From assembly GCF_010093225.1 (NCBI RefSeq), contig NZ_PDWM01000017.1, positions 1 through 59,534 on the forward strand: a stretch of DNA of 59,534 nt. Direction: 5' to 3'. This document shows, in pieces, positions 27,250-44,004 of the stretch. The translations under genes were made by a program, and so were the position numbers. This DNA comes from Pseudoxanthomonas koreensis. Its GTDB lineage: Bacteria; Pseudomonadota; Gammaproteobacteria; Xanthomonadales; Xanthomonadaceae. Every line of letters starts with the position of its first letter. Position 1 is the first letter of the stretch. Below the pieces are notes generated by a model, which ran no database searches, was not told the DNA's origin, and saw only the letters and a list, made by a program, of their open reading frames with translations.

Positions 27250-27278
27250 TTGGGCAAATGAAATTTTCGCCGTAATCT
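27250..27278 (+). promoter_or_regulatory. Promoter of the LysR regulator gene
   Basis: TTGGGC (27250-27255), 17 bases, TAATCT (27273-27278), about 35 bases before the start. The AT-rich patch GAAATTTTC between them and a weak TAGC-N12-GCTA dyad (27228-27247) are candidate LysR contact points shared with the divergent dgo operon. I could not identify a firm LysR box. Confidence 0.55.
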
Positions 27279-27313
27279 ATTCCCCACTCGCATAGATCGC
27301 CCTGGGAGGGGAG

Positions 27314-28291
27314 ATGGGCAAGCCCACCGGCAACGCGCACTGGTTCAACCCGTCGCGGCTGAAGACCCGGCACCTGCTGCTGCTGATGCACCTGGAAGAG
27401 CAGGGCTCGGTGCTGCGCGCCGCCGAGGCCGCGCGTATGACCCAGCCGGCCGCCTCCAAGTTGCTGGCGGAAATGGAGGGCCTGCTCGGGGTGCCGCTGT
27501 TCGAGCGGCATGCGCGCGGGGTGGAGCCGACCTGGTACGGCCAGGTGCTGATCCGGCGCGCGCGCACCGCGCTGCTGGAGATTAATCGCGCCCAGGAGGA
27601 GATCGCCGCGCTGCGCGAAGGGCGCATGGGCCAGGCCTCGATCGGGACCGTGGTCAATCCGGGCACCAACCTGGTGCCGCAGGCGGTGGCTGCGGTCAAG
27701 CGCGAGTACCCGGACATCCTGGTGCGGATCGAGATGGACTACAGCCGGCCGCTGGTGGCCGCGCTGCTGGACGGCCAGCTGGACCTGGTGGTCGGCCGGA
27801 TCATGGATCCGGCGGACAGCGTGGACCTGGAGTTCGAGTCGCTGGCCGACGAGCCACACTCGGTGATCGTGCGCGCCGGCCATCCGCTGGACGGCCGCGC
27901 CCTGGTCCGGCACGAGGAACTGGCGGACTACGGCTGGATCCTGCCGCCGCCGGACAGCGTGCTGCGCGCGCGGCTGGAGACCATGTTCCTGGAGAACGGC
28001 CTGGTCGGCGCGCGCAACGCGATCGAGACCGCGTCGCTGCCGGTGATGATCAACCTGCTGCGGGTCAGCGACCTGCTGGTGGCGCTGCCGGTGGAATCGG
28101 TCGCCTCCTACGTGCAGGCCCGGCAGCTGGCGGTGCTGCCGGTGGAGCTGGGGGTCGGCATGGAGTCGTTCGGGATTATCCGCCGCCGCGGCCACCTGCT
28201 GTCGCCGGCCGCCGAGCGGGTGCTGGAGGCGCTGCGGGCCACGGCGCAGCGGTTGTACGCGGGTCACGCCCGGCCGACCGGGGCCTCCTGA
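27314..28291 (+). CDS. LysR-family regulator, GbpR-like, probable galactonate-pathway regulator
   Basis: A 325-residue LysR protein. The HTH lies at about residues 17-76 (RLKTRHLLLLMHLEEQGSVL, MTQPAASKLLAEMEGLLGVP); the effector domain follows from about 105 (QASIGTVVNPGTNLVPQAV). The relatives I recognise are GbpR-type regulators of galactose genes in alpha-proteobacteria. Divergence from dgoA over 251 bp is the classical LysR layout, so control of the dgo operon by galactonate or a pathway intermediate is likely. It could also act on the xyloglucan locus immediately downstream, which I cannot test here. Confidence 0.88.
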   Translation: MGKPTGNAHWFNPSRLKTRHLLLLMHLEEQGSVLRAAEAARMTQPAASKLLAEMEGLLGVPLFERHARGVEPTWYGQVLIRRARTALLEINRAQEEIAALREGRMGQASIGTVVNPGTNLVPQAVAAVKREYPDILVRIEMDYSRPLVAALLDGQLDLVVGRIMDPADSVDLEFESLADEPHSVIVRAGHPLDGRALVRHEELADYGWILPPPDSVLRARLETMFLENGLVGARNAIETASLPVMINLLRVSDLLVALPVESVASYVQARQLAVLPVELGVGMESFGIIRRRGHLLSPAAERVLEALRATAQRLYAGHARPTGAS

Positions 28292-28304: not shown

Positions 28305-28370
28305 ATTCCATTGAGGAATACCGCCTATCCCAAAACTTCATTGGTGTCCGACCCGCACCCCCTCCTATGG
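28305..28370 (+). promoter_or_regulatory. Shared xyloglucan-locus promoter module, site A (TonB receptor 1)
   Basis: Palindrome ATTCC-N5-GGAAT (28305-28319), 17 bases, TTCATTGGT (28337-28345) overlapping -35 TTGGTG (28341-28346), an 18-base spacer and -10 CTATGG (28365-28370). The same elements in the same order precede TonB receptor 2 and the GH74 gene. The leader to the start codon is about 135 bases. Confidence 0.75.
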
Positions 28371-28511
28371 TGCCTCCGGGGAAACCTTTGCGCCGCTGCG
28401 GTATCGTTATCTCGTCCGGGATGACAGCGCTTGCAGGGGGGCGGGACGCTCCAGGGGAAAAACAGAAAAACCAGTCCGTTCGATCCGTCAGTGTCCTGGG
28501 AGGGAACAGTG

Positions 28512-31500
28512 ATGTCGAAGCAACCGATTGGCACCGCCACGCGCGGTGCGACCTTGCGCCTGCCTGTCCACCTCGCCCGTTCCGCGCTCGCCCTGGGCAT
28601 CGCCCTGGCGCTGCCGGCCGGGGTGCTGCACGCCCAGGCCGCGGCCGACGTGGCGGAGGACCAGGCCGGGGAGGCCGCCGGAAAGACCGCCGAAGCCGCT
28701 GGCGGCGCCGAGGGGACCCAGGACTTCCAGTCCGTCGAGGTCAGGGGCATCCGCGGCAGCGTGATGCGCGCCCAGGACCTCAAGCGCGACGCCGATCAGA
28801 TCGTGGACTCGGTCACCGCGCAGGACATCGGCGCGCTGCCGGACCGCAGCGTGACCGAGACGCTCAAGCGCGTGAGCGGCGTGACCGTCACCAACTTCCT
28901 GGCGCGCGACGATCCCGACCACTTCTCGGCCGAGGGCAGCGGCGTGATGATCCGCGGCCTGACCCAGGTGCGCGGCGAACTCAACGGCCGCGACGTGTTC
29001 AGCGCCAACGGCGGCCGCGGCCTGAGCTTCGAGGAAGTGCCCTCCGAGCTGATGGCCGGCGTGGACGTGTACAAGAACCCGGCGGCGGACATCATCGAGG
29101 GCGGCCTGGGCGGCACGGTCAACCTGCGCACACGCATGCCGTTCGACGAGCCCGGGCGCAAGGTCGCCGCCAGCATCGACTACAACTACGGCGACTTCGT
29201 CGAGAAGGGCAATCCGTCGGGCTCGTTCCTGTTCAGCGACCGCTGGACCACCAGCGGTGGCGGCGAATTCGGCTTCCTGGCCAACGTCTCGTATTCGGAA
29301 CTGGCCACGCGTTCGGACGGCATCCAGGTCGAGGCCTACCAGCGCCGCAACGACGCCGCGCTGCTGGAAGGCACCAGTTTCGACTGGGTCTACATCCCCG
29401 GCGGCGTCAACTGGCGCACCCTGGACTTCGAACGCAAGCGGCAGGGCCTGGCCCTGGCGGCGCAATGGCGGCCGAACGAGAACACCGAGGTCTACGCCCA
29501 GTTCCTGCGCTCGAAGTACAACATGCAGTGGCGCGAGCACTCGATGACCTTCGGCGACCAGCTGCAGGGCGCCGATGGCGCGTGGCGCGACAACGACATC
29601 CTGCCGGCGCCCGGCACGACGTTCACCTACGACCGCAACGGCGTGTTCCAGACCGGTTACGCGACGCGCCAGCGCCAGGAAATCGACTGGGTGAACATCG
29701 ACTGGGGCAGCATCGACTGGAGCCAGCCCTGGGATCCGAGCATCACCGAGCTGTGCTGCGACCTGGAGCCCTACAGCCTGGCCTTCCGTACCACCAACCG
29801 CCTGGCCACCCAGGAGACGGTGACCAGCGACTGGTCGGCCGGCTTCCGCCACTACATCACCGACCGGCTGGTGATGCGCGGCGACCTGCAGTACGTGGAG
29901 TCCTCGAGCAAGCCGGTGGACTTCTCCGTCATCGCCAGCACCTTCCTCAGCGACGTCTACCTCGACCTGACCGGCAAGTATCCCTCGCTGCAGCTGGCCG
30001 CCGAGCACGAGCAACTGGGCGACCCGCGCTCGTACTCGTGGCTGGCGAACATGGACAACCTGCAGGACAACCATGGCGAGGAAGTCGCCGCGCGCCTGGA
30101 CTGGGAGTACGCCTTCGACGACAGCAACTGGCTGCGCTTCTTCCGTTTCGGCGTGCGCGCCACCTCGCGCGAGCAGGTCAACAGGGACAGCGGCTGGGAC
30201 AACTGGATGCCGGTCAGCGCCACCTGGGCCACGCTCGACCCCGGCGCCACCGGGCAGTACGGCTCCTGGGACGGCGGCAACGAGCTGGCGTGGCTGAGCG
30301 ACTACCTGCCGCAGTACTCCGAGCTGTACACGATGGGCAACTTCTTCCGCGGCAAGGTCCAGGTGCCGGGCAACCTGTGGTACCCGAACAACGCGATCGT
30401 CGATCTGGAGAACGCGGGCGCGGCGTTCCCGCCGCTGTATGCCGACCGCCTGGCCGCCGGCGGCCAGGGCTGGCTGCCGGCGGTGTTCAATCCGCAGGAC
30501 ACCAACCACCAGGAGGAACGCACCCAGGCGGTGTACGGCGCGCTGTACTTCGAGAACGACAGCCTGTTCGGCGGCCGCACCCTCGACGGCAACGTCGGCG
30601 TGCGCATCGTCCAGACCAGCACCTCGAGCGTCGGCTATGGCCAGATCCCCGACCTGAGCGGCCAGCTCCGGCTGACCCCTGAGGTACGCGCGGCGTTCGA
30701 CGGCAGCTACTTCAACATCGACAGCGCCGGCAGCTATACCGACGTGCTGCCCAGCCTCAACCTGCGCCTGCACCTGAACCCGCAGCTGCAGTGGCGCTTC
30801 GCCGCGTCCAAGGCGATCGCGCGCCCGGAGTTCCGGCAGATGACCTCGTGGCTGCCGCTGCGGGTGGGTGTGGACGAAAGCTGCCAGCCACAGCAGAACG
30901 GCGGCGCGCTGTGCGGCTTCGAGTACCTCGAGGGCTTCACCGGCTCGGCCGGCAACCCGAACCTTGAGCCGATGCGCGCCAACCAGTTCGACACCGCGCT
31001 GGAGTGGTACTTCGGGCCGGCGAACATGCTCTACGCGACCCTGTTCTACAAGGACGTGGAGGGCTACTTCGTCTCCGAGACCCGCGACGAGGAGATCGGC
31101 GGGATCAGCTGGGCGGTGACCCGCCCGCACAACCTCGATACCGGAAAAATCCAGGGCTTCGAGGTGGGCTGGAACCAGTTCTTCGACTTCCTGCCCGGCT
31201 GGATGAAGGGCTTCGGCGTGCAGGCGAACTACACCTACGTGGACAGCTCGGGCGGCAGCAACATGAACCCCGATCCGAACGATCCGGACGCGCGCCGGCC
31301 GCAGGTGGACAACCTGCCGCTGGAAGGGCTGTCCGAGCGTTCGTACAACGTGGTGGGCATCTACGAGCACGGCCCCTGGTCGTTCCGCCTGGCCTACAAC
31401 TGGCGTTCGCGCTACCTGCTGACGGCCAGCGAAACCAACCTGCAGCTGCCGATGTGGGCGGACGATTTCGGCCAGCTGGACGGCTCGTTCTTCTACAACA

Positions 31501-31673
31501 TCAACGACAACATCCAGGTCGGCATCCAGGCCAACAACCTCACCGACGCGGTCACCACCGTGCTGATGGGGCCGCGGCTCTACGACGACGGTTACCTGGA
31601 CGAGACGCTGTACCCGCGTTCGTACTTCATGAACGACCGGCGCTACTCGGCGGTGCTGCGCGCGCGCTGGTAG
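28512..31673 (+). CDS. TonB-dependent receptor 1 of the xyloglucan locus (Xanthomonas-Caulobacter type)
   Basis: A 1053-residue outer membrane transporter. The signal peptide ends near residue 37 (GVLHAQA); after a low-complexity linker the plug starts with SVEVRGIRGSVMRAQDLKR and continues IGALPDRSVTETLKRVSGV, typical of the Xanth-Caulo TBDR group that takes up oligosaccharides. The 22-strand barrel ends in Arg-Ala-Arg-Trp, a BAM-recognised aromatic C terminus. A vicinal Cys415-Cys416 pair lies in a probable extracellular loop. Given its neighbours it should import xyloglucan oligosaccharides. The ATG follows the GGGAGGGA ribosome binding site. Confidence 0.93.
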   Translation: MSKQPIGTATRGATLRLPVHLARSALALGIALALPAGVLHAQAAADVAEDQAGEAAGKTAEAAGGAEGTQDFQSVEVRGIRGSVMRAQDLKRDADQIVDSVTAQDIGALPDRSVTETLKRVSGVTVTNFLARDDPDHFSAEGSGVMIRGLTQVRGELNGRDVFSANGGRGLSFEEVPSELMAGVDVYKNPAADIIEGGLGGTVNLRTRMPFDEPGRKVAASIDYNYGDFVEKGNPSGSFLFSDRWTTSGGGEFGFLANVSYSELATRSDGIQVEAYQRRNDAALLEGTSFDWVYIPGGVNWRTLDFERKRQGLALAAQWRPNENTEVYAQFLRSKYNMQWREHSMTFGDQLQGADGAWRDNDILPAPGTTFTYDRNGVFQTGYATRQRQEIDWVNIDWGSIDWSQPWDPSITELCCDLEPYSLAFRTTNRLATQETVTSDWSAGFRHYITDRLVMRGDLQYVESSSKPVDFSVIASTFLSDVYLDLTGKYPSLQLAAEHEQLGDPRSYSWLANMDNLQDNHGEEVAARLDWEYAFDDSNWLRFFRFGVRATSREQVNRDSGWDNWMPVSATWATLDPGATGQYGSWDGGNELAWLSDYLPQYSELYTMGNFFRGKVQVPGNLWYPNNAIVDLENAGAAFPPLYADRLAAGGQGWLPAVFNPQDTNHQEERTQAVYGALYFENDSLFGGRTLDGNVGVRIVQTSTSSVGYGQIPDLSGQLRLTPEVRAAFDGSYFNIDSAGSYTDVLPSLNLRLHLNPQLQWRFAASKAIARPEFRQMTSWLPLRVGVDESCQPQQNGGALCGFEYLEGFTGSAGNPNLEPMRANQFDTALEWYFGPANMLYATLFYKDVEGYFVSETRDEEIGGISWAVTRPHNLDTGKIQGFEVGWNQFFDFLPGWMKGFGVQANYTYVDSSGGSNMNPDPNDPDARRPQVDNLPLEGLSERSYNVVGIYEHGPWSFRLAYNWRSRYLLTASETNLQLPMWADDFGQLDGSFFYNINDNIQVGIQANNLTDAVTTVLMGPRLYDDGYLDETLYPRSYFMNDRRYSAVLRARW

Positions 31674-31704
31674 CGCTGTTCCACCGCGACATGTTTCCTC
31701 CGTC

Positions 31705-31738
31705 GGCCCGCGCGGGCAACCGCGCGGGCCTTTTCTTT
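31705..31738 (+). terminator. Strong intrinsic terminator after TonB receptor 1
   Basis: GGCCCGCGCGG (31705-31715) pairs perfectly with CCGCGCGGGCC (31720-31730) over a GCAA tetraloop, then TTTTCTTT. It makes receptor 1 its own transcription unit. The rest of the 304-bp gap 31674-31977 holds only the site B promoter and the receptor 2 leader, which includes a run of nine A; no gene is seen. Confidence 0.95.
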
Positions 31739-31762
31739 GCTTCCTTGCGGGTGCCTTGATGT

Positions 31763-31826
31763 AGTCCAGTACGGAATAGGTGGGCCCGGATATTTCATTG
31801 GTCTGGAATTGGAGCGCCGCTTAGGC
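31763..31826 (+). promoter_or_regulatory. Shared xyloglucan-locus promoter module, site B (TonB receptor 2)
   Basis: AGTCC-N5-GGAAT (31763-31777, one mismatch from the palindrome), 16 bases, TTCATTGGT (31794-31802) overlapping -35 TTGGTC (31798-31803), a 17-base spacer and -10 TTAGGC (31821-31826). A second GGAAT (31805-31809) lies just downstream of the -35, as at site C. Confidence 0.72.
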
Positions 31827-31977
31827 TGCGGGAGTCGCCGGTTCATCGATCGACCGCTGCACGAATCAATCGGCCGTGCCCCTCCGCGGGACCGGCCGGC
31901 CGCGAAGGCCAAAAAAAAACCAGCCTGGGAGCGGCCGCCCCGTTCCCGCTTGCAACGCACGTCCTGGGAGGGATCGT

Positions 31978-34941
31978 ATGTCCAAGCTCCAGAACCGCCG
32001 TCCGTCCGGACGCGCGTCCACGCGCACCCAGTTCCGCCCCCTCAACCGCAGCACGCTGGCGATGAGCCTGGCGCTGCTGCTCGCCGCCCCGGCCTACGCG
32101 CAGGACGCGGCCACCCCCGCCAGCGGCGACGACCAGGCGGTCACCGAACTCGACCAGGTCACCGTCACCGGCATCCGCGGCTCGATCCAGCGCGCGCAGG
32201 ACATCAAGCGCGAAGCCGATACTTTCGTCGACTCGGTGACCGCGCTGGATATCGGCGCGCTGCCCGACCGCAGCGTCACCGAGACCCTGTCGCGCATCCC
32301 CGGCGTGACCATCGACCGCTTCCTCGCCGTGGGCGACCCGGAGCACTTCTCCGCCGAAGGCAATGGCGTGCAGGTGCGTGGCCTGACCCAGGTGCGTTCC
32401 GAGCTCAACGGCCGCGACAGCTTCTCCGCCTCCGGCGGCCGTGGCCTCAGCTTCCAGGACGTGCCGTCCGAGCTGATGGGCGGCGTGGACGTGTACAAGA
32501 ACCAGACCGCCGCGATGATCGAGGGTGGCCTGGGCGGCACCGTCAACCTGCGCACGCGGCTGCCGTTCGACTTCGAGGACCAGAAGCTGGCCGCCAGCTT
32601 CAGCATCAACCGCGGCGACTTCGCCGACAAGGTCGATCCGTCGGCCTCGGTGCTGTACAGCAACCGCTGGACCTACGGCGACGGCGGCGAGTTCGGCCTG
32701 CTGGTCGACGTGGCCCGCTCGGACCTGTCCACCCGCACCGACGGCCTGTTCGTGCGCCCGTTCTTCAAGAACAGCAACAGCGACCTCAACGGCGACGGCA
32801 CCGGCGACGAGCTGTGGATCCCGCGCGGTGCCGACTGGCGCACGCTGCAGTACGAGCGCGAGCGCTCCGGCGCCTACGTGGCGGCGCAGTGGCGCCCGAA
32901 CGACGACATCGAGGTCGTCGCCACCGCCTTCCAGAGCAAGTACAACGAGCTGTGGTTCGAGGACGCGATCTTCGTCTCGAACGACCCGACCCAGGTCATG
33001 GTCGACGCCAGCCAGCCCTACGAGTTCGAAGGCAACGTGTTCCGTTCCGGCCGCATCACCCAGAACGGTGGCGTGCCGATGGGCACCGACATCCGTGCCT
33101 CGGACCGCAAGTCGAAGACCGCCGACTACTCGATCGGGGTGAAGTGGCAGTTCAGCGACAACACCGAGTTCTCGACCGACCTGCAGTACGTCAAGGCCGA
33201 CACCCAGAAGCTCGATTCCACCGTGTCACTGGGCGTCAACGTGCCTTACATCGACGTCGCCCTGGGCGGCGTGCCCAGCATCGGCATCAACGAGGACTTC
33301 ACCACCAACCCGGCGAACTACTACTGGGGCTTCACCATGGAGAACCTGGTCGACAACGAAGCCGACCAGGTTGCGTGGCGCGCCGACATCCGGCACCGCC
33401 TGGACGGCGGGCTCTTCAAGGGCATCCGCGGCGGCGTGCGCCTGACCGACCGCGACGCCACCAGCCGCGACACCAGCTACAACTGGCAGCCGGTGTTCCA
33501 GACCTGGATGCAGTGGTGGGCGCTGCCGGGCGGCGTGCCGCTGCCGGGGCTGGACCTCAACGACACGGTCAATTCCAGCCTGGTCAACCTCAACAACTTC
33601 AACAACTTCTACCGTGGCGGCGCCAACACCCCCGGCAAGTTCTACGCGCCGATCCTGGCCACCGCGCTGGGTTTCCCGGACAGCTACAAGGCCATCCACG
33701 ACGCCGCCGCGCCGTTCTACAGTTGTTGCTACGGCCTGGGCCCGTTCGAGCCGCGCAGCCTGGACGAGCCGGCGTACACCAACATCCAGAGCGAGACCAC
33801 CCGCGCGGCCTACGCGATGGTCGACTTCGGCCTGGACGAGTTGCTGCTGGACGGCAACTTCGGCGTGCGCGTGGTGCGCACCGAGAACTCCGCCAACGGC
33901 TACCTGATCTTCCCGAACGTGGCCTACGCGCCGTTCCTGGGCGCCGGCGAGTCCGAGCCGATCGAGGCGAAGAACTCCTACACCGACGTCCTGCCGAGCG
34001 GGAACGTGCGCTGGGAGCCGGTCGACGACGTGATCGTGCGCTTCGCCGCGTCCCAGGCGATCGCGCGCCCTGACTTCGGCGACATGCAGGCCTACCAGGT
34101 GCTCAACGCCTCGGCGCGCGACGGGGTGACTCCGCCCACCGACGGCAGCCCGCTGCCAGTCACCGACCTCAACCTGACCGGCGACTCCTACGACAACCCG
34201 TACCTGGAGCCGATGAAGGCCAACCAGTACGACCTGTCGACGGAGTGGTACTTCGATCCGGACCACGGCGGCATGGCCTGGGTGAACCTGTTCCACAAGG
34301 ACATCAAGGACTACTTCCGCCGCCAGTCCGAGCTGGTCGCGTTCCCGGGCGCCGACGGCAACATGTACGACTACCTGGTCACCCGCCCGGTGAACATCGG
34401 CTCGGCGCGCATCACCGGCGCCGAACTGGGCTGGAACCAGTTCTTCACCTTCCTGCCGGCGCCGTTCGATGGCCTGGGCATGTCGGCGAACTTCACCTAC
34501 ATCGACAGTTCGACCAGCATCCCGAACGACCCGACGGTGATCCCGACCGACACCGACGGCACCCCGCTCGGCGACCTGCCGGCCGACGGCCTGTCCGAGC
34601 GCGCCTACAACATCGCCGCGTTCTACGAGAAGGGTCCGTGGCAGGTCCGCTTCGCCTACAACTGGCGCAGCGAGTTCCTGCTGTCGGTCGGCCCGAACGG
34701 CTACAACGGCGGCGACGGTGGCATCGCCTGGAAGCTGCCGGTGTACAGCGACGACTACGGCCAGCTGGACGGTTCGATCTTCTACCGCTTCAGCGACAAC
34801 GTGCAGCTCGGCCTGGAGATGAACAACCTCAACAACGCCGAGCAGCGCACGATCATGCAGCAGGCCGACGCCGGCCGGCACGTGACTTCGTGGTACGTGA
34901 ACGACCGCCGGTACGCGGCCACGCTCCGCATCACGTTCTGA
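31978..34941 (+). CDS. TonB-dependent receptor 2 of the xyloglucan locus
   Basis: A 987-residue paralogue of receptor 1. The signal peptide ends near residue 41 (LLAAPAYAQDA). The plug carries VTVTGIRGSIQRAQDIKREA and IGALPDRSVTETLSRIPGV, then GGVDVYKNQTAAMIEGGLGG; the barrel ends Leu-Arg-Ile-Thr-Phe. It has Cys583-Cys584 in a loop, at a different place from the Cys pair in receptor 1, so the two pairs arose separately or moved. Two TonB receptors side by side occur in the X. citri xyloglucan locus; they may prefer different oligosaccharide sizes or decorations, which is inference. Confidence 0.93.
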   Translation: MSKLQNRRPSGRASTRTQFRPLNRSTLAMSLALLLAAPAYAQDAATPASGDDQAVTELDQVTVTGIRGSIQRAQDIKREADTFVDSVTALDIGALPDRSVTETLSRIPGVTIDRFLAVGDPEHFSAEGNGVQVRGLTQVRSELNGRDSFSASGGRGLSFQDVPSELMGGVDVYKNQTAAMIEGGLGGTVNLRTRLPFDFEDQKLAASFSINRGDFADKVDPSASVLYSNRWTYGDGGEFGLLVDVARSDLSTRTDGLFVRPFFKNSNSDLNGDGTGDELWIPRGADWRTLQYERERSGAYVAAQWRPNDDIEVVATAFQSKYNELWFEDAIFVSNDPTQVMVDASQPYEFEGNVFRSGRITQNGGVPMGTDIRASDRKSKTADYSIGVKWQFSDNTEFSTDLQYVKADTQKLDSTVSLGVNVPYIDVALGGVPSIGINEDFTTNPANYYWGFTMENLVDNEADQVAWRADIRHRLDGGLFKGIRGGVRLTDRDATSRDTSYNWQPVFQTWMQWWALPGGVPLPGLDLNDTVNSSLVNLNNFNNFYRGGANTPGKFYAPILATALGFPDSYKAIHDAAAPFYSCCYGLGPFEPRSLDEPAYTNIQSETTRAAYAMVDFGLDELLLDGNFGVRVVRTENSANGYLIFPNVAYAPFLGAGESEPIEAKNSYTDVLPSGNVRWEPVDDVIVRFAASQAIARPDFGDMQAYQVLNASARDGVTPPTDGSPLPVTDLNLTGDSYDNPYLEPMKANQYDLSTEWYFDPDHGGMAWVNLFHKDIKDYFRRQSELVAFPGADGNMYDYLVTRPVNIGSARITGAELGWNQFFTFLPAPFDGLGMSANFTYIDSSTSIPNDPTVIPTDTDGTPLGDLPADGLSERAYNIAAFYEKGPWQVRFAYNWRSEFLLSVGPNGYNGGDGGIAWKLPVYSDDYGQLDGSIFYRFSDNVQLGLEMNNLNNAEQRTIMQQADAGRHVTSWYVNDRRYAATLRITF

Positions 34942-34962
34942 TCGAAGACCGGCAGTGAGGGG

Positions 34963-34995
34963 AAGGGGAGGTGGCTGCCTCCCCTTTCCTTTTTC
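34963..34995 (+). terminator. Intrinsic terminator after TonB receptor 2
   Basis: AAGGGGAGG (34963-34971) pairs with CCTCCCCTT (34978-34986), loop TGGCTG, followed by a T-rich tract ending TTTTT. Confidence 0.9.
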
Positions 34996-35042
34996 CGGGA
35001 CGCCCGATGCGCCTGGGGCGACCAGGCGCTTGCCGCGATGCA

Positions 35043-35106
35043 ATTCCCTCGCGGAATAGTTCGAGCCCCAGAATTCATTGGTCCGGAATGGCAGCCTCGC
35101 CTATTC
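35043..35106 (+). promoter_or_regulatory. Shared xyloglucan-locus promoter module, site C (GH74 operon)
   Basis: Perfect ATTCC-N5-GGAAT (35043-35057), 16 bases, TTCATTGGT (35074-35082) overlapping -35 TTGGTC (35078-35083), a 17-base spacer and -10 CTATTC (35101-35106), with an extra GGAAT (35085-35089). It should drive the GH74-CE20-GH35-GH31-GH95 operon. Confidence 0.75.
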
Positions 35107-35213
35107 TCGTCCCTGGCAGGACCGCACGCTGCATCGCGGCCGGCTCCGGCGGCACGGGCCAGTCCGGTGCCGCCGGTCCCCAACACGAGGTCTGTCCTGG
35201 GAGGGAACAGCGC

Positions 35214-37418
35214 GTGCGTCGCATCGCGATCCTGCTTGCCGTGCTCGCATGGCACGGCGGCACGGCCATAGCGGCCACGAAATCCGAGCCGTACGTCTGG
35301 CGCAACGTCGCCGTCGGTGGCGGCGGTTTCGTCACCGGCATCGAGTTCCATCCCTCCGAACGCGGGCTGGCCTATGCGCGCACCGACGTCGGTGGCGCCT
35401 ACCGTTGGGACGCGGCCGCGAGGCGCTGGATTCCGCTGACCGACTGGATTGGCCACGCCGACGCCAACCTCACCGGGATCGAGAGCGTGGCGCTGGATCC
35501 CTCCGATCCGCAGCGCGTGTACCTGGCCGCCGGCACCTATACCCACGAACGGGCCGGCAAAGGCGCGATCCTGCGCTCGGCCGACCGTGGCGCGACGTTC
35601 CAGCGCAGCGACCTGCCGTTCAAGCTGGGCGGCAACGAGCTGGCGCGCGGCAACGGCGAGCGCCTGGTGGTGGATCCGAACGATGGCCGCGTGCTGTTCC
35701 TCGGCTCGCGCGCCGACGGGCTGTGGCGCAGCGAGGACCATGGCGAGCGCTGGACGCGGGTAGACGGTTTCCCGGCGCTGGCCACTTCGGCGTCGGCCAG
35801 CGCGAGCAACTGGCGCACGCAGGCGATCGGCATCGTCTTCGTCGCCTTCGACCCGGCCAGCGGCACGCCGGGTGCGCCGACGCCGGTGGTGTACGCGGGC
35901 GTGTCCAGCCGCGACGGCGGGCTGTTCCGTTCCAGCGACGGCGGCCGCAGCTGGCAGGCGGTCGCGGGGCAGCCGCAGGGGCTGCGCCCGAACCACATGG
36001 TCCGCGACGCGCGCGGTGACTTCCTGCTCAGCTACGGCGACGAGCCGGGGCCGGACAGCATGAGCAATGGCGCGGTCTGGCGCTGGTCGCCGGCCAGTGG
36101 CGCCTGGACCGACGTCACCCCGGCGCCGCAGTCCACCGACCAGCAGGGCGACGGCTTCGGCTGGGGCGCGGTCGCGGTGGATGCATCCAATCCCGACGTG
36201 ATCATGGCCTCCACCTTCGCCCGCTGGGCGCCGGGCGACGACGTCTACCGCAGCACCGATGGCGGCCGCAGCTGGACGCCGGTGTTCGTGTGTTCGCAGT
36301 TCGACCATTCCGCATCGCCGTGGACGGCGCAGGCGAAGCCGCACTGGATGGCCGACATCGAGATCGACCCGCACGACCCGGACCGGGTGCTGTTCGTCAC
36401 CGGCTACGGGCTATGGGCCTCGCGCGACATGACTGCGTTCGACCGCGGCGACAGGGTGCACTGGAGCTTCGAGGTCGCCGGGCTGGAGGAAACGGTGCCG
36501 CTGGATCTACTCAGCCCGCCGCAGGGTGCACCGCTGGTCAGCGGCCTGGGCGACATCGATGGTTTCCGCCACGACGACCTGCAACGGGCGACCACGCAGT
36601 TCCCGGCGCCGCCGCGCTACAGCAATACCGAAAGCCTGGACTACGCCGGCCAGCAGCCGCAGTTGCTGGTGCGCAGCGGCCACCTGCACGATGCCGGCAC
36701 CGGCGTGGTGCGCGCGGCGTACTCGCGCGACGGCGGCAGCAGCTGGACCGCGTTCGCGAACGAGCCGCAGGGCGAGGGCGCCGGCAACGGCGCCGGACGG
36801 ATCGCGATCGCCGCCGATGGCGGCCGGGTGATCTGGCACACGCGCGATGGCGTGCAGTGGCTGAGCGACAACTTCGGCGGGCGCTGGCAGAAGGTGCGCG
36901 GCCTGCCGGCGACCGCGGTGGTCGCCGCCGACCGGGTCGCTGCGGCGCTGTGGTACGGCTTCGATCCGGTAAGTGGCGACCTGTACATCAGTGGCGACGG
37001 TGGCGTCGAATTCGAGAAGGCAAGCGGCGGCATCGGCGCGGTTGGCGACTGGTTTCGCGCCGAGCTGCTGCCGGCGCCGGTGGGCAGGGTGGTGTACTTT
37101 GCCGCGTCGTGGAAGGGCCTGCTGCGCTGGAGCGAAGGCAGGCTGGAGCGGCTGCCCGGGGTGGAGAATGCCTACGCCGCCGGGCTGGGCGCGCCGAAGC
37201 CCGGCAGCGACGCGCCGACCCTGTTCGTGTCCGGTGAAGTCGGTGGGGTGCAGGGCCTGTTCCGCTCCGACGACGATGGCAAGCGCTGGGTGCGGATCGA
37301 CGACGCCCGGCACCGCTTCGGCAGCGTGCGCATGCTCACCGGCGATGCGCGCGTGCCCGGCCGCGTCTACCTGGCCACCGGTGGCCGCGGCATCATCTAT
37401 GGGGAACCTGCACGATGA
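35214..37418 (+). CDS. Endo-xyloglucanase, glycoside hydrolase family 74
   Basis: A 734-residue secreted enzyme that cuts the beta-1,4-glucan backbone of xyloglucan. The GTG start gives a short Sec signal (VRRIAILLAVLAWHGGTAIA). The two seven-bladed propellers are marked by recurrent Asp-box-like SxDGGxxW repeats (SSDGGRSW, STDGGRSW, SRDGGSSW). Catalytic Asp58 lies in YARTDVGGAYRWD, and the second catalytic Asp is probably in SGLGDIDGF near residue 445. No carbohydrate-binding module is attached. The GTG follows the GGGAGGGA ribosome binding site. It opens the five-enzyme operon and overlaps the CE20 gene by ATGA. It probably acts at or outside the cell surface. Confidence 0.93.
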   Translation: MRRIAILLAVLAWHGGTAIAATKSEPYVWRNVAVGGGGFVTGIEFHPSERGLAYARTDVGGAYRWDAAARRWIPLTDWIGHADANLTGIESVALDPSDPQRVYLAAGTYTHERAGKGAILRSADRGATFQRSDLPFKLGGNELARGNGERLVVDPNDGRVLFLGSRADGLWRSEDHGERWTRVDGFPALATSASASASNWRTQAIGIVFVAFDPASGTPGAPTPVVYAGVSSRDGGLFRSSDGGRSWQAVAGQPQGLRPNHMVRDARGDFLLSYGDEPGPDSMSNGAVWRWSPASGAWTDVTPAPQSTDQQGDGFGWGAVAVDASNPDVIMASTFARWAPGDDVYRSTDGGRSWTPVFVCSQFDHSASPWTAQAKPHWMADIEIDPHDPDRVLFVTGYGLWASRDMTAFDRGDRVHWSFEVAGLEETVPLDLLSPPQGAPLVSGLGDIDGFRHDDLQRATTQFPAPPRYSNTESLDYAGQQPQLLVRSGHLHDAGTGVVRAAYSRDGGSSWTAFANEPQGEGAGNGAGRIAIAADGGRVIWHTRDGVQWLSDNFGGRWQKVRGLPATAVVAADRVAAALWYGFDPVSGDLYISGDGGVEFEKASGGIGAVGDWFRAELLPAPVGRVVYFAASWKGLLRWSEGRLERLPGVENAYAAGLGAPKPGSDAPTLFVSGEVGGVQGLFRSDDDGKRWVRIDDARHRFGSVRMLTGDARVPGRVYLATGGRGIIYGEPAR

Positions 37419-39358
37419 AACATCGCATCCTTCTTGCGGCACTGTCGTTGTTCGCACTGCCGATGACGGCGCTGGCGGCGCAGCTGGAACTGCCGCTGCT
37501 GTTCTCCGACGGCGCCGTGCTGCAGCGCGACCGCGCGTTGCCGGTGTGGGGCCAGGCCGCGCCCGGCGCGAAGGTGCAGGTGCAGTTCGACCGCAGCAGT
37601 GCGCAGGCCGTGGCCGGCGCCGACGGCCATTGGTCGCTGCAGCTGCCCGCGCACGCCGCCGGCGGTCCCTATGAGCTGGTGGTGCGAGCGGGCGGCGAAG
37701 AGCACCGCGTGCGCGACGTGCTGGTCGGCGAGGTGTGGCTGGCCTCGGGCCAGTCGAACATGGAGTGGCCGGTGGCGCAGACCCTGCACGCGCAGGAGGA
37801 CATCGCCGCGCCGGCCGATCCGTGGCTGCGCCAGTTCAAGGTCCCCAAGTCCTGGGCCGAAGCGCCGCAGGCGCAGTTGCAGGGCGGGCAGTGGAAGTCG
37901 GCCGCGCCGGATACGGTGGGGCAGTTTTCGGCGGTGGCGCATGCCTTCGCCCGCGAGCTGCGCCAGGTGCTCGGCGTGCCGGTCGGGGTGATCGACAGCA
38001 CCTGGGGCGGCAGTTCGATCGAGGCGTGGATGGACGCATCGATGCTCGGCCTGGATGCGGCAGCGCTGGAGGCGAAGATGCGCGAGCGCCGCGCCGCCGA
38101 CCTCCGGGTCGAGGAACAGGTGCGGGCGAAGCTGGCGGCATGGCCAGCGCTGGAGCCGGCGTCGGAGGCGTTCGCCGTCGCACAGATGGACGACAGCGCC
38201 TGGACCACCCTCCAGGTGCCGGGCATGTGGGAGCAGCAGGGTTATCCGGGCATGGATGGCGTGGCCTGGTACCGCACGGTCTTCGAACTGAGCGAGCGCG
38301 AGGCGAAGGCCGGGGTGGTGCTGGGCCTGGGCCAGGTCGACGATACCGACACCACCTGGGTCAACGGCGTGCGCGTGGGCGGCGTCAGCAACGGCTACAA
38401 CGTGCCGCGTGTCTACAAGGTGCCGGCGTCGGCGCTGCGCGCGGGCCTGAACACGATCGCGGTGCGGGTCGAGGACGGCGGCGGTGGCGGCGGCATTGGC
38501 GGCAGCGCCGGCGAGCTCTTCGTCGAACCGGTCGGCGGCACGCGCCGCGGCCTGGATGGAGGCTGGCGCTTCCGTACCGCGGCGGTCACGGTCTCCACCT
38601 CCGACGACAAGAACCAGGTCGATACCCTGCTGTACAACGCGATGATCCATCCGCTGCTGCCATATCCGCTGGCGGGAGTGATCTGGTACCAGGGCGAGAC
38701 CAACGCCAGCGAGTGGGGCGCGTACCGCTATCGCGAGCAGTTCAGGACCCTCATCGAGGGCTGGCGCGCGAAGTGGAACGCGCCGCAGATGCCGTTCCTG
38801 TGGGCACAGCTGGCCGCGTTCCATTCCGGCGGCGACCGCCTCGACGGGCGTGGCGTGGTCATCGACAGCCCGTGGGCGACCCTGCGCGAATCGCAGTCCG
38901 CGGTGCTGGCGCTCCCGGCCACCGGCCAGGCGGTGATCATCGACGTGGGCGCGGCCGACGACATCCATCCGCGCGACAAGCACACCGTTGGCCATCGCCT
39001 GGCGCTGCAGGCGCGGCACGTGGCCCATGGCGCGCAGGACCTGGTCCATCGCGGGCCGGAGTTCCGCGGGGTCGAGGCGAAGGGACGCGAGCTGGTCCTG
39101 CACTTCGACGCGATCGGCGGCGTGCTGGCCGCGCGGATGGGTGGCGGCGCCGCGCCGCGGGGTTTCGAGCTGGCCGGTGCCGACGGACGCTTCCACCCGG
39201 CGCAGGCGCGCATCGCCGGCGATACCGTGGTGCTGCGCAGCGACGCGGTCGCCACGCCGGAAACGGCGCGCTACGCGTGGAGCGACAACCCGGCGCAGGC
39301 CGACCTGGTCGGCGCCGATGGGCTGCCGGCTTCGCCGTTCCGCACGCGGGCCTGGTGA
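37415..39358 (+). CDS. CE20-type xyloglucan acetylesterase (annotated elsewhere as sialate O-acetylesterase)
   Basis: A 647-residue SGNH-type esterase with a Sec signal (MKHRILLAALSLFALPMTALAA). The catalytic Ser114 is in GQSNMEWP, and the Asp515-x-x-His518 dyad is in DDIHPRDKH. The SGNH domain is split by an insert of about 120 residues (near 255-380; AWYRTVFELSEREA, WVNGVRVGG) resembling a jelly-roll sugar-binding module, followed by VIWYQGETN. This split architecture is that of family CE20, founded on the acetylesterase of the X. citri xyloglucan locus. Context, translational coupling to GH74, argues for removal of acetyl groups from xyloglucan galactose rather than sialic acid. Confidence 0.85.
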   Translation: MKHRILLAALSLFALPMTALAAQLELPLLFSDGAVLQRDRALPVWGQAAPGAKVQVQFDRSSAQAVAGADGHWSLQLPAHAAGGPYELVVRAGGEEHRVRDVLVGEVWLASGQSNMEWPVAQTLHAQEDIAAPADPWLRQFKVPKSWAEAPQAQLQGGQWKSAAPDTVGQFSAVAHAFARELRQVLGVPVGVIDSTWGGSSIEAWMDASMLGLDAAALEAKMRERRAADLRVEEQVRAKLAAWPALEPASEAFAVAQMDDSAWTTLQVPGMWEQQGYPGMDGVAWYRTVFELSEREAKAGVVLGLGQVDDTDTTWVNGVRVGGVSNGYNVPRVYKVPASALRAGLNTIAVRVEDGGGGGGIGGSAGELFVEPVGGTRRGLDGGWRFRTAAVTVSTSDDKNQVDTLLYNAMIHPLLPYPLAGVIWYQGETNASEWGAYRYREQFRTLIEGWRAKWNAPQMPFLWAQLAAFHSGGDRLDGRGVVIDSPWATLRESQSAVLALPATGQAVIIDVGAADDIHPRDKHTVGHRLALQARHVAHGAQDLVHRGPEFRGVEAKGRELVLHFDAIGGVLAARMGGGAAPRGFELAGADGRFHPAQARIAGDTVVLRSDAVATPETARYAWSDNPAQADLVGADGLPASPFRTRAW

Positions 39359-39404
39359 GGCGGGCGTGCAGCGGGACCTGATTCGAATGGTGGAGGAGTG
39401 CGGG

Positions 39405-41147
39405 ATGCGGAACGTGTGGAGGTGGAGTGGTGGCGGATTCGCGCGCACGGCGGCGCTGGCGCTGCTGGCGTTGTCGCTGGCCGCATGCGGCGATCGCGAG
39501 GGGACGGACGCGTCAGGGCCGACGGCTGCAGTCACGCCCGCGTCCGGTGCGCCCGCCAGGCCCGGCGCGGCGGATGAGGCGCCGATCCCGCGGATCGTCA
39601 GCAAGGATGGCCGCCACGCCCTGCTGGTCGACGGCGAACCGTTCCTCATCCTCGGCGCGCAGGTCAACAATTCCAGCAACTGGCCCAGGGCGCTGGACAA
39701 CGTGTGGCCGGCGATCGAGGTGCTCAAGCCGAACACGGTGATGGTGCCGGTGGCCTGGGAGCAGATCGAGCCGGTGGAAGGCGAGTTCGACTTCTCCTTC
39801 GTCGACGAGCTGCTCAGGCAGGCGCGCGAGCGCGACAAGCGCCTGATCCTGCTGTGGTTCGCCACCTGGAAGAACAACGCACCGCATTACGCGCCGAAGT
39901 GGGTGAAGCTGGACACCCAGCGCTTCCCGCGGGTGATCACCGAAGACGGCCGCACCCTCAATTCGCTGTCGCCGCTCGGGCAGGAAACGCTGGAGGCCGA
40001 CCGCCGCGCCTTCGTCCAGCTGATGACCCACCTGCGCGACAACGATCCGCAGCGCACGGTGATCATGGTCCAGCCGCAGAACGAGCCGGGCACCTACGGC
40101 GGGGTGCGCGACTTCTCGCCGATGGCGCAGGAGGTGTTCGAAGGCCCGGTGCCTCAGGAACTGCTGGAGAAGCTCGGCAAGCCGCCGGGCAGCTGGCGCC
40201 AGGTGTTCGGCGCCGACGCCGACGAGTTCTTCCACGCCTGGCACATCGCCCACTTCATCGACCAGGTGGCGCAGGCCGGCAAGGCGGTCTATCCGCTGCC
40301 GATGTTCGTCAATGCGGCCCTGCGCGGGCCGTTCAATCCCGGCCAGCCCGGCCAGTACGCCAGCGGCGGCCCGACCGACAACGTGCTCGACATCTACAAG
40401 GCCGCCGCGCCGCATATCGACCTGCTGGCGCCGGACATCTACATGCCCGAGTACACGATGTACACGACGGTGCTGGACCGCTACGCGCGCCCGGACAACC
40501 CGCTGTTCGTGGCCGAGACCGGCAACCGCGTCGAGTACGCACGCTACTTCTTCTCCGCGCTGGGCCACCAGGCGATCGGCTGGTCGCCGTTCGGGATCGA
40601 CTACTCGAAGTATTCGAACTATCCGCTGGGCGCGAAATCCATGAACCCGGAGACGCTGGCGCCGTTCGCGCTCAACTACGCGCTGGTGTCCCCGGCCGCG
40701 CGGCTGATCGCCAAGGCCAGCTTCGAAGGCCGCGTGCACGGCACCGCCGAGCAACCCGGCCAGCCGGTGCAGATCCTGCCGATCGACGGGCGCTGGAAGG
40801 CGGTGGTCACCTACGGCGTGCCGCAGTTCTGGTTCCAGGGCGAGCCGCCGGGCAATCCCGAGCCGATCGGCGCCGCGCTGGTGGTGCAGCTGGGGCCAGA
40901 CGAATTCCTGGTCACCGGCCAGTACGCGCGGGTGAACCTGGTCGCGACCGACCCGGCCATCGCCGACCGCCAGATCTACGAGTACGTCGACGAAGGCACC
41001 TACGTCGACGGCGAATGGGTGTTCCACCGCCGCTGGAACGGCGACCAGACCGATTACGGACTCAACTTCTCCAGCGCCCCGCAGCTGCTGCGGGTGAAGC
41101 TGGCGACCTACGACACCACGAACACGGCGAACCACCAGGAGCCCTGA
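39405..41147 (+). CDS. GH35 beta-galactosidase, lipoprotein
   Basis: A 580-residue GH35 enzyme expected to remove beta-galactose from xyloglucan side chains. A GGAGGAG ribosome binding site (39392-39398) fixes the start MRNVWRWSGG; the signal ends in lipobox LAAC, so the enzyme is probably membrane-anchored, facing the periplasm. Acid/base Glu227 lies in QPQNEPGTYG and nucleophile Glu371 in VAETGNR, in the TIM barrel. The C-terminal part (about 420-560) fits the DUF5597 type found with bacterial GH35. It lies 46 bp after CE20 and 1 bp before GH31. Confidence 0.92.
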   Translation: MRNVWRWSGGGFARTAALALLALSLAACGDREGTDASGPTAAVTPASGAPARPGAADEAPIPRIVSKDGRHALLVDGEPFLILGAQVNNSSNWPRALDNVWPAIEVLKPNTVMVPVAWEQIEPVEGEFDFSFVDELLRQARERDKRLILLWFATWKNNAPHYAPKWVKLDTQRFPRVITEDGRTLNSLSPLGQETLEADRRAFVQLMTHLRDNDPQRTVIMVQPQNEPGTYGGVRDFSPMAQEVFEGPVPQELLEKLGKPPGSWRQVFGADADEFFHAWHIAHFIDQVAQAGKAVYPLPMFVNAALRGPFNPGQPGQYASGGPTDNVLDIYKAAAPHIDLLAPDIYMPEYTMYTTVLDRYARPDNPLFVAETGNRVEYARYFFSALGHQAIGWSPFGIDYSKYSNYPLGAKSMNPETLAPFALNYALVSPAARLIAKASFEGRVHGTAEQPGQPVQILPIDGRWKAVVTYGVPQFWFQGEPPGNPEPIGAALVVQLGPDEFLVTGQYARVNLVATDPAIADRQIYEYVDEGTYVDGEWVFHRRWNGDQTDYGLNFSSAPQLLRVKLATYDTTNTANHQEP

Positions 41148-41148
41148 C

Positions 41149-44004
41149 ATGACCCGACTCCACCGAATCGCAGGCCTGCTGGCCCTGCCACTGGCCATTT
41201 CGCTGGCCGGCTGCGGCACCAAGGCGGCCTCGAACTGGGAGCGCTCCGGCGACGATGTGCTCGTCCGCCCCAGCGCCGAAGGTGCCGCCGGCGTGCGCCT
41301 GCAGGTCGTGGCCGACAACATCATCCGCGTCACCGCCGATCCGGCCGGCAAGTTCGAGCGCGCCGAGAGCCTGATGCGGGTGCCGTCCGACGCGAAGGCT
41401 CCGGCGTTCGAGGTCAGCGAGGCCGATGGCCAGCTGCGCGTGGCCGCCGCCGGCGTGTCGGCGACGGTGTCGCTGGAGGATGGCCACGTCGCCTTCTTCG
41501 ATGCGGCCGGCAAGCCGCTGGTGTCGGAAGTGGCCGGCGGCCGCAGCTTCACCGCCACCGAGTTCGACGGCCGGCCGTACTACAGCATCCGCCAGCGCTT
41601 CGCCGGCAATGCCGACGAGAGCCTGCACGGTACCGGCCTGCACCAGCAGGGCTGGATGGACCTCAAGGGCCGTGATGTCGAGCTGCTCCAGCACAACATC
41701 GACAACGCCATTCCCTACCTGATGTCCAGCCGCCACTACGGCATCCTGTGGGACAACAACTCGATCACCCGCTACGGCGACCCGCGCGGCCTGCGCCAGG
41801 TCGGCGAGGTGGTGACGCTGTTCGACAAGGACGGCGTGGAGGGCGCGCTGACGGCGACCTATTCGATCGACGGCCAGGTGAAGCTGGCCCGCCGCGAGGA
41901 GAAGGTCGACTACCAGTTCATCTCCGGCCTGGAGGACTTCCCGGAGGAGGGCAAGAACCTCGCACCGGGCGGCCGCAGCGACGTGACCTGGGAAGGAAAG
42001 ATCGCCGCGCGGACCGACGGCCGCCACACCTTCTCGCTGTACAACAGCGAGTACGCGAAGCTCTATGTCGACGGCAAGCTGGTCCTCGACCGCTGGCGCC
42101 AGAACTGGAACCCGTGGCACCACGAGTTCGCGCTCGAGCTCAAGGCCGGCGAGAAGCACGACCTGAAGATCGAGTGGGACCGGATCGAGCCGGCCTACAT
42201 CGCCCTGCAGGGCCGCGACCCGTTGCCGGCCACGGAGGCGCAGGACCTGTCGATCTGGTCCGAGGCGGCGCAGGTGATCGACTACTACGTGGTCGCCGAT
42301 GACGATGCCGACGGCGTGATCGCCGGCTACCGCCAGCTCACCGGCAAGGCGGTGGTCCTGCCGAAGTGGTCCTACGGCTTCTGGCAGAGCCGCGAGCGCT
42401 ACAAGACCCAGGCCGAACTGACCGGCGCGCTCGACGAGTACCGCCGCCGCAAGCTGCCGATCGATGCGATCGTGCTCGACTGGTCGTACTGGCCGGAGGA
42501 CGCCTGGGGCTCGCACGAGTTCGACACGAAGAACTTCCCGGACCCCGACGGCATGGTCAGGCACGTGCACGACCAGCACGCGCAGATCATGATCTCGGTG
42601 TGGCCGAAGTTCTACCCGACCACCGCGCACTACAAGGAACTGGACGCGGCCGGCGCGATGTTCACGCGCAACGTCGAGGTCGGCGAGCTGGACTGGATCG
42701 GCAAGGGCTACCTCAACTCGTTCTACGACGCGCATTCGGAGCAGGGCCGTTCGATCTTCTGGCGCCAGGTCAACGAGACCCTCAACCGCCGCGGCATCGA
42801 TGCGTGGTGGCTGGATGCGTCCGAGCCGGACCTGCACAGCAACATCGACATCGGCGAGCGCAAGGCGCGGATGCTGCCCAATGCGCTGGGCTCGTCGGTG
42901 GAGTACTTCAATTCCTATCCGCTCAAGCACTCCGAGGGCGTGTACCAGGGTTCGCGCCAGGTCGATCCGGACAAGCGCGTGTTCATCCTCTCTCGCGCGT
43001 ATTTCGCCGGGCAGCAGCGCGCCGGCGCGGCGTTCTGGAGCGGCGACATCGTGCCGCGCTGGGACGACTTCCGCGAACAGATCTCCGGCCTGGTCAACGC
43101 CTCGATGGCCGGCGCGCCGAACGTGAGCTTCGACATCGGCGGCTTCGCCCCGGAGAACCGCTTCATCGAGCAGCAGCCGGCGCACGTGCCGGAGTGGCGC
43201 GAGCTCAACCTGCGCTGGTTCCAGTACGGCGCGTTCGTGCCGATCTTCCGCCTGCACGGCCAGTTCCCGTACCGCGAGATCTGGGAGATCGCCCCGGAGG
43301 GCACGCCGCACTACGACAGCTTCGTCCACTACCTGAAGCTGCGCTACTCGTTGCTGCCGTACATCTACACCCTGGCCGGCGACACGTACCATCGCGACGG
43401 CACCATCCTGCGCGCGCTGGCGATGGACTTCCCGTCCGATGCGAAGGCCCGCGAGGTCGCCGACCAGTACCTGTTCGGCCCGGCCTTCCTGGTCGCGCCG
43501 GTGGTGGAATTCAAGGCGACCAGCCGCGAGGTCTACCTGCCGGCGGGCACGTCGTGGATCGACTTCGAGACCGGCCAGCGCCACGAGGGCGGGCAGACCA
43601 TCACCGCCGCGGCACCGCTGCAGCGCATGCCGCTGTTCGTGCGCGCCGGCTCGATCGTGCCGCGCACCGTGGTCCAGCAGTACGTGGACGAGCAGCCCGA
43701 TGCTCCGTTGACCATCGAGGTCTACACCGGCGCCGACGGCAGCTTCTCGCTTTACGAGGACGACGGCCGCAACTACGGCTACGAGCGTGGTGAATCCAGC
43801 CGCATTCCGCTGGCCTGGAACGAGGCCAGCGGCGAGTTGACGATCGGTGCGCGTGAGGGCTCGTACCCGGGCATGCAGGCGGAGCGCGAGGTCCGCGTGC
43901 GCTTCATCGACGGCCCGCGCGACGACGCCGGCGAAGTGGAGCCGAAGGCCGACCGCACGCTGCAGTACACGGGGCAGGCGCTGACCGTGGGCCGCAACGG
44001 CTGA
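41149..44004 (+). CDS. GH31 alpha-xylosidase with PA14 insert, lipoprotein
   Basis: A 951-residue GH31 enzyme that should release xylose from the non-reducing end of xyloglucan oligosaccharides. The signal MTRLHRIAGLLALPLAISLA ends in lipobox LAGC. A PA14-type domain (about 277-365; DGRHTFSLYNSEYAKLYVDG) is inserted before the barrel, as in Cellvibrio Xyl31A-type enzymes specific for xyloglucan. The nucleophile is Asp556 (WWLDASEPD) and the acid/base Asp633 (WSGDIVPRWD). The PA14 insert and the gene context favour alpha-xylosidase over alpha-glucosidase. Its stop is followed by GH95 after 31 bp. Confidence 0.93.
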   Translation: MTRLHRIAGLLALPLAISLAGCGTKAASNWERSGDDVLVRPSAEGAAGVRLQVVADNIIRVTADPAGKFERAESLMRVPSDAKAPAFEVSEADGQLRVAAAGVSATVSLEDGHVAFFDAAGKPLVSEVAGGRSFTATEFDGRPYYSIRQRFAGNADESLHGTGLHQQGWMDLKGRDVELLQHNIDNAIPYLMSSRHYGILWDNNSITRYGDPRGLRQVGEVVTLFDKDGVEGALTATYSIDGQVKLARREEKVDYQFISGLEDFPEEGKNLAPGGRSDVTWEGKIAARTDGRHTFSLYNSEYAKLYVDGKLVLDRWRQNWNPWHHEFALELKAGEKHDLKIEWDRIEPAYIALQGRDPLPATEAQDLSIWSEAAQVIDYYVVADDDADGVIAGYRQLTGKAVVLPKWSYGFWQSRERYKTQAELTGALDEYRRRKLPIDAIVLDWSYWPEDAWGSHEFDTKNFPDPDGMVRHVHDQHAQIMISVWPKFYPTTAHYKELDAAGAMFTRNVEVGELDWIGKGYLNSFYDAHSEQGRSIFWRQVNETLNRRGIDAWWLDASEPDLHSNIDIGERKARMLPNALGSSVEYFNSYPLKHSEGVYQGSRQVDPDKRVFILSRAYFAGQQRAGAAFWSGDIVPRWDDFREQISGLVNASMAGAPNVSFDIGGFAPENRFIEQQPAHVPEWRELNLRWFQYGAFVPIFRLHGQFPYREIWEIAPEGTPHYDSFVHYLKLRYSLLPYIYTLAGDTYHRDGTILRALAMDFPSDAKAREVADQYLFGPAFLVAPVVEFKATSREVYLPAGTSWIDFETGQRHEGGQTITAAAPLQRMPLFVRAGSIVPRTVVQQYVDEQPDAPLTIEVYTGADGSFSLYEDDGRNYGYERGESSRIPLAWNEASGELTIGAREGSYPGMQAEREVRVRFIDGPRDDAGEVEPKADRTLQYTGQALTVGRNG

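Follow-up and report, generated by a model that had tools for sequence, protein, structure and literature searches.

A described relative of the locus studied here is the xyloglucan-utilization locus (XyGUL) of Xanthomonas, in which, in the accessible part of its description (PMC8245568), the regulator GamR (XAC1767) is numbered just before the two TonB-dependent receptors (TBDTs) XAC1768 and XAC1769. Two further described systems concern mRNA leaders: CsrA/RsmA hairpins (glgC, hcnA and the RsmZ loops, with an ANGGAN hexaloop) present GGA in a six-nucleotide loop on a short stem at the Shine-Dalgarno sequence, and the Xanthomonas mRNAs repressed by the small RNA (sRNA) sX13 carry a G-rich motif at the ribosome-binding site. 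Here we analyzed a stretch of 59,534 nucleotides from Pseudoxanthomonas koreensis (contig NZ_PDWM01000017.1; hereafter the window), in which the 12-mer TCCTGGGAGGGA precedes two TBDT genes and one GH74-like gene of a xyloglucan-utilization locus. Like the Xanthomonas XyGUL, this locus has a LysR-type regulator, two TBDTs, and GH74-like, acetylesterase, GH35-like, GH31 and GH95 products in the same downstream order, whereas the nearest related loci found are those of Luteimonas and Pseudoxanthomonas. On balance, we favor the reading that TCCTGGGAGGGA is a strong Shine-Dalgarno sequence that forms the loop region of a short hairpin in the leader, which would be read by a trans-acting factor.

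Recurrence of the 12-mer before start codons

The three exact copies in the window are all on the forward strand (28494-28505, 31962-31973 and 35195-35206), which confirms the coordinates and the position just 5' of start codons given by a first-pass annotation of the sequence. Copy 1 ends 3 nt 5' of GTG 28509 and 6 nt 5' of ATG 28512, copy 2 ends 4 nt 5' of ATG 31978, and copy 3 ends 7 nt 5' of GTG 35214. The close variant that the annotation had seen in the LysR leader is also present, and we read it as CCCTGGGAGGGG at 27300-27311. The k-mer models of the window expect only ~0.0004-0.003 exact copies per strand. At up to two mismatches, nine matches were found against 4.55 expected, a count that is reached by 8 of 100 shuffles and is not unusual.

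The 12-mer recurs well beyond the window. The whole genome (3.05 Mb) holds four exact copies and none of the reversed pattern. The fourth, at C2:48929, is found 5 nt 5' of the start of a TBDT-like outer-membrane gene that has a carboxypeptidase-regulatory domain; the element is therefore not confined to the xyloglucan locus. In 60 genomes of the family, this one included, we counted 69 exact copies against none of the reversed pattern, with at least one copy in 27 genomes. The first-pass annotation had proposed that the 12-mer serves co-regulation of both receptors and the enzyme operon; as a device particular to this locus it is not supported, since exact and near matches also stand ahead of further TBDT genes and of unrelated ones, in the genome as in the family.

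Covariation across the G-run

The two ends of the 12-mer pair across the G-run as UCC[UGGGAG]GGA, and the covariation of the letters beside them has the form of a hairpin whose loop contains GGA, in agreement with the earlier suggestion that the motif extends beyond what a Shine-Dalgarno sequence needs. Among the 69 exact copies, of which 61 are unique, the two bases that border the 12-mer can pair in 34 cases against 23.4 after permutation (p=0.0015). Among 11 other registers on the same copies, only -1/+2, a one-base bulge, fell below p=0.05 by standard pairs (p=0.024), and by Watson-Crick pairs alone the register -1/+3 was also significant (p=0.042).

The third pair was assessed in searches that fixed only CCTGGGAGGGR or less and left that pair free. 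The loose-pattern search gave much coding noise because TGGGAG occurs as Trp-Glu codons; 31 family rows with CCTGGGAGGG[AG], chosen by eye among the matches listed, were used and rows of other families were dropped. From a companion search, 48 distinct of 63 rows were used. Ten exact-copy rows lacking a possible start were left out of the pooled covariation set and of part of the stem-extension test. Among the matches listed, 73 distinct rows gave T-A 30, C-G 25, T-G 3, C-A 5, A-G 8, A-A 1 and G-A 1 at the third pair (T/C against A/G, Fisher p=1.3e-9), and 48 clustered rows gave T-A 17, C-G 18 and T-G 3 (Fisher p=3.2e-5); the fourth pair forms in 31 of the 51 rows left after clustering, where permutation gives 20.2 (p=0.0005).

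The covariation score is 0.223 against 0.138 in shuffles, none of 500 shuffles reaching it and slid registers giving at most 0.118; for the TBDT2 orthologues it is 0.228 against 0.152, with 2 of 500 shuffles reaching it and slid registers at most 0.148. Thirteen TBDT2 rows from Rhodanobacter, Dyella, Rudaea and similar loci (L100, L103-L106, L108-L110, L112 twice, L113, L115 and L120) were dropped from alignments A1 and A2, and L116 was dropped from both alignments for its broken frames. The energy of stem extension across the core in 51 leaders stands at z=-3.1 with flanks permuted and z=-3.4 with letters shuffled within each flank, against z=+0.7 for 126 ordinary GGAG leaders and +1.5 for the complement control. 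RNAalifold recovers the YCC..GGR pairing, and a single apical hairpin is predicted in common for all four leaders of the window. As a conserved outer stem, RNAalifold finds none, though single folds of TBDT1 and TBDT2 leaders in some close relatives show one.

In the LysR leader, the predicted hairpin around CCCTGGGAGGGG (27296-27314, forward strand) has C-G as its third pair. At TBDT1, the predicted hairpin (28486-28514, forward strand; z=-2.1) has the Shine-Dalgarno sequence in its loop and ATG 28512 in its stem. The apical hairpins predicted for TBDT2 (31959-31977, ACG-UCC[UGGGAG]GGA-u-CGU) and for the GH74-like gene (35192-35210, CUGU-CC..GG-a-ACAG) lie on the same strand. Among the matches listed, another family genome (G409:C23:162519 and 162590) has two leaders 71 bp apart with a near-perfect hairpin by eye, ATGCACGTC[GGGAGG]GACGTGCAT, whose loop is the Shine-Dalgarno sequence and whose stem has the start codon at its base.

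Several results weigh against the hairpin. The mean minimum-energy z against dinucleotide shuffles is near zero (TBDT2 -0.23, TBDT1 0.01, other genes of this genome 0.07). The second flanking pair shows no covariation in the exact-copy set or, among the matches listed, in the pooled set, and two of five covariation measures are ordinary, the values for pairs changed on both sides and for pair types being reached in 352 and 376 of 500 shuffles. The register slid by -1 pairs 79.7% of cells against 80.7%, and in the TBDT2 orthologues the two are equal at 98.0. Reversed-flank controls keep part of the stem-extension effect (z=-1.3 and -1.8), and the effect is weaker on the pooled clustered set among the matches listed (z=-1.5, -2.2 and -2.6 for flanks of 4, 6 and 8 nt). 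In an open set of GGGAGGGR leaders (150 rows used, among the matches listed), cross-pairing is weak (z=-1.8) and an adjacent CCT occurs in just 7 of 97 clusters, which nevertheless exceeds the background of 0.015 per position (p=0.003). The UA and CG variants could also partly track lineages. Because of the single-leader energies, which are not unusual on average, the absence of second-pair covariation and the rarity of CCT in the open set, the putative hairpin is best placed as a sub-class of strong ribosome-binding sites.

Genes behind the leader

The gene classes were compared in ~516 kb of the same genome, with 365 crudely called genes (25 TBDT and 340 others). The genome has 25 TBDT barrel matches, and one of 26 TBDT places was left out of this set, having been missed by the gene caller. 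Shine-Dalgarno strength entered the choice of start codons in the same way for every gene, and the absolute Shine-Dalgarno scores are therefore inflated. The leader is enriched before TBDT genes in this genome: a match of at least 9/12 to the 12-mer occurs in 10/25 TBDT leaders against 11/340 others (p=7e-8), the exact 12-mer in 3/25 against 1/340, and GGGAGRG in 10/25 against 9/340 (p=2e-8), whereas plain GGAGG occurs in 8/25 against 55/340 (p=0.055). The first-pass annotation had itself named the objection that the 12-mer is simply the usual ribosome-binding site of most TBDT genes; this is borne out to a considerable extent, with 10 of the 25 TBDT leaders as matches at 9 or more positions and 3 of the 25 as exact ones.

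A search of the genome with TGGGAGGG-N1..10-RTG gave 24 hits (23 sites, one with two starts) against five for the reversed control. The genes at true-looking starts encode six TBDTs, the GH74 and LysR proteins, a major facilitator superfamily (MFS) transporter, and DUF1302-like, proton-pyrophosphatase-like and DUF962/Mpo1-like proteins, where names lacking a Pfam call come from reading the sequence. It also weighs against our preferred reading that only 4 of 23 sampled proteins downstream of exact copies in the family match the TBDTs of this genome by BLAST. A Pfam scan of 16 of these 23 found the TBDT plug in three (L178, L182 and L188), two each of short-chain dehydrogenase/reductase (SDR), alpha-amylase and Mpo1-like proteins, one each of MFS, GH3, penicillin amidase, NMT1-like, DUF4785 and FMN-binding proteins, and no family in L168. 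With downstream families so varied, TBDTs outside this genome are one class among several. The 12-mer is a family-wide, general strong ribosome-binding site, and the TBDT bias is that seen in this genome.

An alternative is that the 12-mer is an extended Shine-Dalgarno sequence preferred in the family, one that duplication of TBDT genes has helped to spread and that needs no dedicated regulator. We consider this a serious alternative, though one that we would not bet on. The GGAGG core stands at the usual Shine-Dalgarno spacing and GGGAGG pairs with the 16S tail; a possible start codon of varied genes follows 59 of the 69 family copies 1-11 nt downstream; the string is conserved in orthologous leaders of 44 related loci (19/43 TBDT2, 3/19 TBDT1, 1/38 GH74 and 0/32 LysR rows); and the leader folds are on average not unusually stable. 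However, by inspection the UCC and the 3' flank add no pairing with the 16S tail, yet they covary across the G-run, and the TBDT bias is one of GGGAGRG, not of plain GGAGG.

Candidate trans-acting factors

Covariation and folds predict that the GGA of the leader is unpaired in the hairpin loop, which makes CsrA a plausible reader. The csrA gene that the first-pass annotation had placed at 8254 is found at 8254-8463 on the forward strand and encodes 69 residues (phmmer to CsrA structures, E=4e-26). It is intact, related to solved CsrA proteins, and by reading has L4 and R44, the residues described as critical in the accessible part of PMC7652899. CsrA/RsmA would bind the loop GGA and either block the ribosome or open the hairpin, thereby co-regulating these genes. 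We hold this model only tentatively and think it rather unlikely as stated. In its favor, the predicted loop has six nucleotides, of which GGA takes up positions 3-5, and closes a short stem, the form that the same source gives as favored in SELEX, X. citri CsrA acts on GGA sites in 5' UTRs according to the available parts of PMC7286519 and PMC3937308, and a carbon-storage regulon could well include some of the target classes, such as those of sugar uptake, glycosidases and SDR.

The loop sequence itself argues the other way. In the CsrA/RsmE consensus ANGGAN, the A is a conserved contact, and ACA is invariant in SELEX (PMC7652899, in the part available). Unlike in the CsrA/RsmA hairpins, the predicted loop UGGGAG begins with U, so that loop position 1 lacks the A, and its sequence is stereotyped across the family; of 55 orthologous leader matches, 32 have T and 3 have A immediately 5' of the G-run. 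GGA is not enriched at TBDT leaders (1.48 against 1.34 per 60 nt), and GGA density was rejected as a sign of CsrA, with no difference between TBDT and other genes. Each of the four leaders in the window has 3-5 GGA within its final 110 nt, a motif that is about as common before other genes. The accessible part of the RsmN/RsmA study reports weak binding of GGA in a compact four-nucleotide loop (PMC3791407), and neither the RsmU paper nor the hrpG paper has the word TonB in its main text.

The annotation had alternatively invoked a small RNA, and a real candidate is present: sX13, on the reverse strand downstream of polA (L122:1226-1340, contig C10 of this genome; 97.5 bits). Of 43 related genomes, 42 have a match at E<=0.001, which lies above the family cut-off in 32 and below it in 10, and 1 of 14 control genomes also matches, below the cut-off. 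Two alphaproteobacterial families, Atu_C7 and ar14, match the sX13 of this genome as well, each with less than its gathering score. By this account, the C-rich loops of sX13 would kiss the G-rich leader loop and repress translation, which we judge improbable. Its loops CUCCCC are complementary to GGGAG, and their duplexes with the three leaders reach -13.1 to -16.5 kcal/mol; in Xanthomonas, G-rich motifs close to start sites are targets of the C-rich sX13 loops, as described in the accessible part of PMC3771888.

The specific or cognate complementarity expected of such a pair is lacking. The TBDT excess of complementarity (raw p=0.02) falls to p=0.21 after correction for Shine-Dalgarno strength, which accounts for the match of the loops to the G-run, and cognate sX13-leader pairs do not outperform swapped pairs (z=-0.98, p=0.17), leaving co-evolution of loop and leader unsupported. 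Cofold energy was also tried, with no TBDT excess (p=0.32); as cofolding cannot form loop-loop pairs, it was replaced by the loop duplexes. Unlike the sX13-repressed mRNAs, the three leaders have GGGAGGG and miss the strict GGGG, which is not raised at TBDT leaders of this genome (6/25 against 54/340, p=0.27); they also have a covarying hairpin context and complementarity no greater than Shine-Dalgarno strength gives. Moreover, the TBDT gene XCV3572 fell rather than rose without sX13 in one of two media, according to the part of PMC3771888 available.

Organization of the locus and putative operators

The LysR, TBDT and GH74-like genes are on the forward strand. The LysR-type regulator gene (27314-28291; Pfam LysR_substrate and HTH_1) holds the position of GamR, and from this synteny we infer that it is GamR. 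It is followed by TBDT1 (28509-31673, from GTG 28509 or ATG 28512; Pfam TonB_dep_Rec_b-barrel and Plug), TBDT2 (31978-34941; Pfam) and a xyloglucanase-like gene of GH74 type (35214-37418; Pfam BNR/Sortilin repeats), whose product we take to be GH74-like from synteny. Downstream, at 37415-46414, lie in order an acetylesterase (SASA), a GH35-like gene with DUF5597, a GH31 gene with PA14 and a GH95 gene. Two TBDTs accompanied by GH74, esterase, GH35, GH31 and GH95 together mark a xyloglucan-utilization locus. The GH74 and GH35 labels rest on synteny with the locus as given in the accessible part of PMC8245568, in which neither the leader hairpin nor the operator described below was found. Among the related loci L078-L121, TBDT1 and TBDT2 are found in swapped order, and some stretches (for example L084, L085 and L111) have no GH74 match. 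In the complete genome of Pseudoxanthomonas sp. NC8 (L116), the locus genes are split over several frames, which may be a sequencing error.

A palindrome TATTCCCCACTCGCATA (27278-27294, forward strand) of the form TATTC-N5..9-G[AC]ATA precedes the LysR gene and is likely an autoregulatory operator; this form is found upstream of 29 of 33 LysR genes, this one included, against a shuffled mean of 0.00. Putative LysR-type operators, also on the forward strand, precede TBDT1 (28305-28344, ATTCC-N5-GGAATA ... TTCATTGG), TBDT2 (31762-31801, GGAATAG ... TTCATTGG) and the GH74-like gene (35042-35081, ATTCC-N5-GGAATAG ... TTCATTGG), the GGAATA box standing before TTCATTGG in all three. With the window genes included, TTCATTGG lies upstream of 25/44 TBDT2, 7/20 TBDT1 and 5/39 GH74 genes (shuffled means 0.05-0.09, that for TBDT2 being 0.09), and of 0/33 LysR, 0/28 GH31 and 2/34 esterase genes. 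The strict GGAATA-box pattern occurs in 5 of 43 orthologous TBDT2 rows and in none of the TBDT1 or GH74 rows, while looser half-sites were seen by eye in more rows. Joint expression of both receptors and the enzyme gene is thus better and more simply explained by the putative shared upstream LysR-type operator.

Discussion

The matched base changes in relatives suggest a common translation switch with a putative controlling factor, and in the open PMC literature, judged by titles and the beginnings of abstracts, no paper on such a leader was found. In the mechanism that we propose from these sequence patterns, the hairpin would form in the cell and display the Shine-Dalgarno sequence GGGAGG in the loop of Y-C-C-[U-GGGA-G]-G-G-R, with a stem lengthened by flanks that vary yet still pair and that in some genes, such as TBDT1 here, would include the start codon. 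The leader sequence recurs family-wide, at TBDT genes and at others, among which several serve nutrient uptake or carbon use. An open hairpin would give high translation, and the hairpin shape would suit a trans-acting factor that grips the GGA or the G-run, with CsrA/RsmA as the first candidate, narrowly, and the C-rich sX13 as the second. Within the locus, the LysR-type operator would switch the three transcripts together and the hairpin would set their translation.

A bolder and speculative extension, which we think unlikely, is that the covarying hairpin marks a family-wide nutrient-uptake regulon in Xanthomonadaceae, its loop contested by CsrA and the C-rich loops of sX13; if true, this would be a competition of protein and RNA at one standard ribosome-binding site. 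With a recognizable hairpin leader, short RNAs would suffice to test both the CsrA and the sX13 model. The family has many TBDT genes, and the setting of their translation seems little studied; such a leader would allow a possible post-transcriptional regulon to be listed from sequence.

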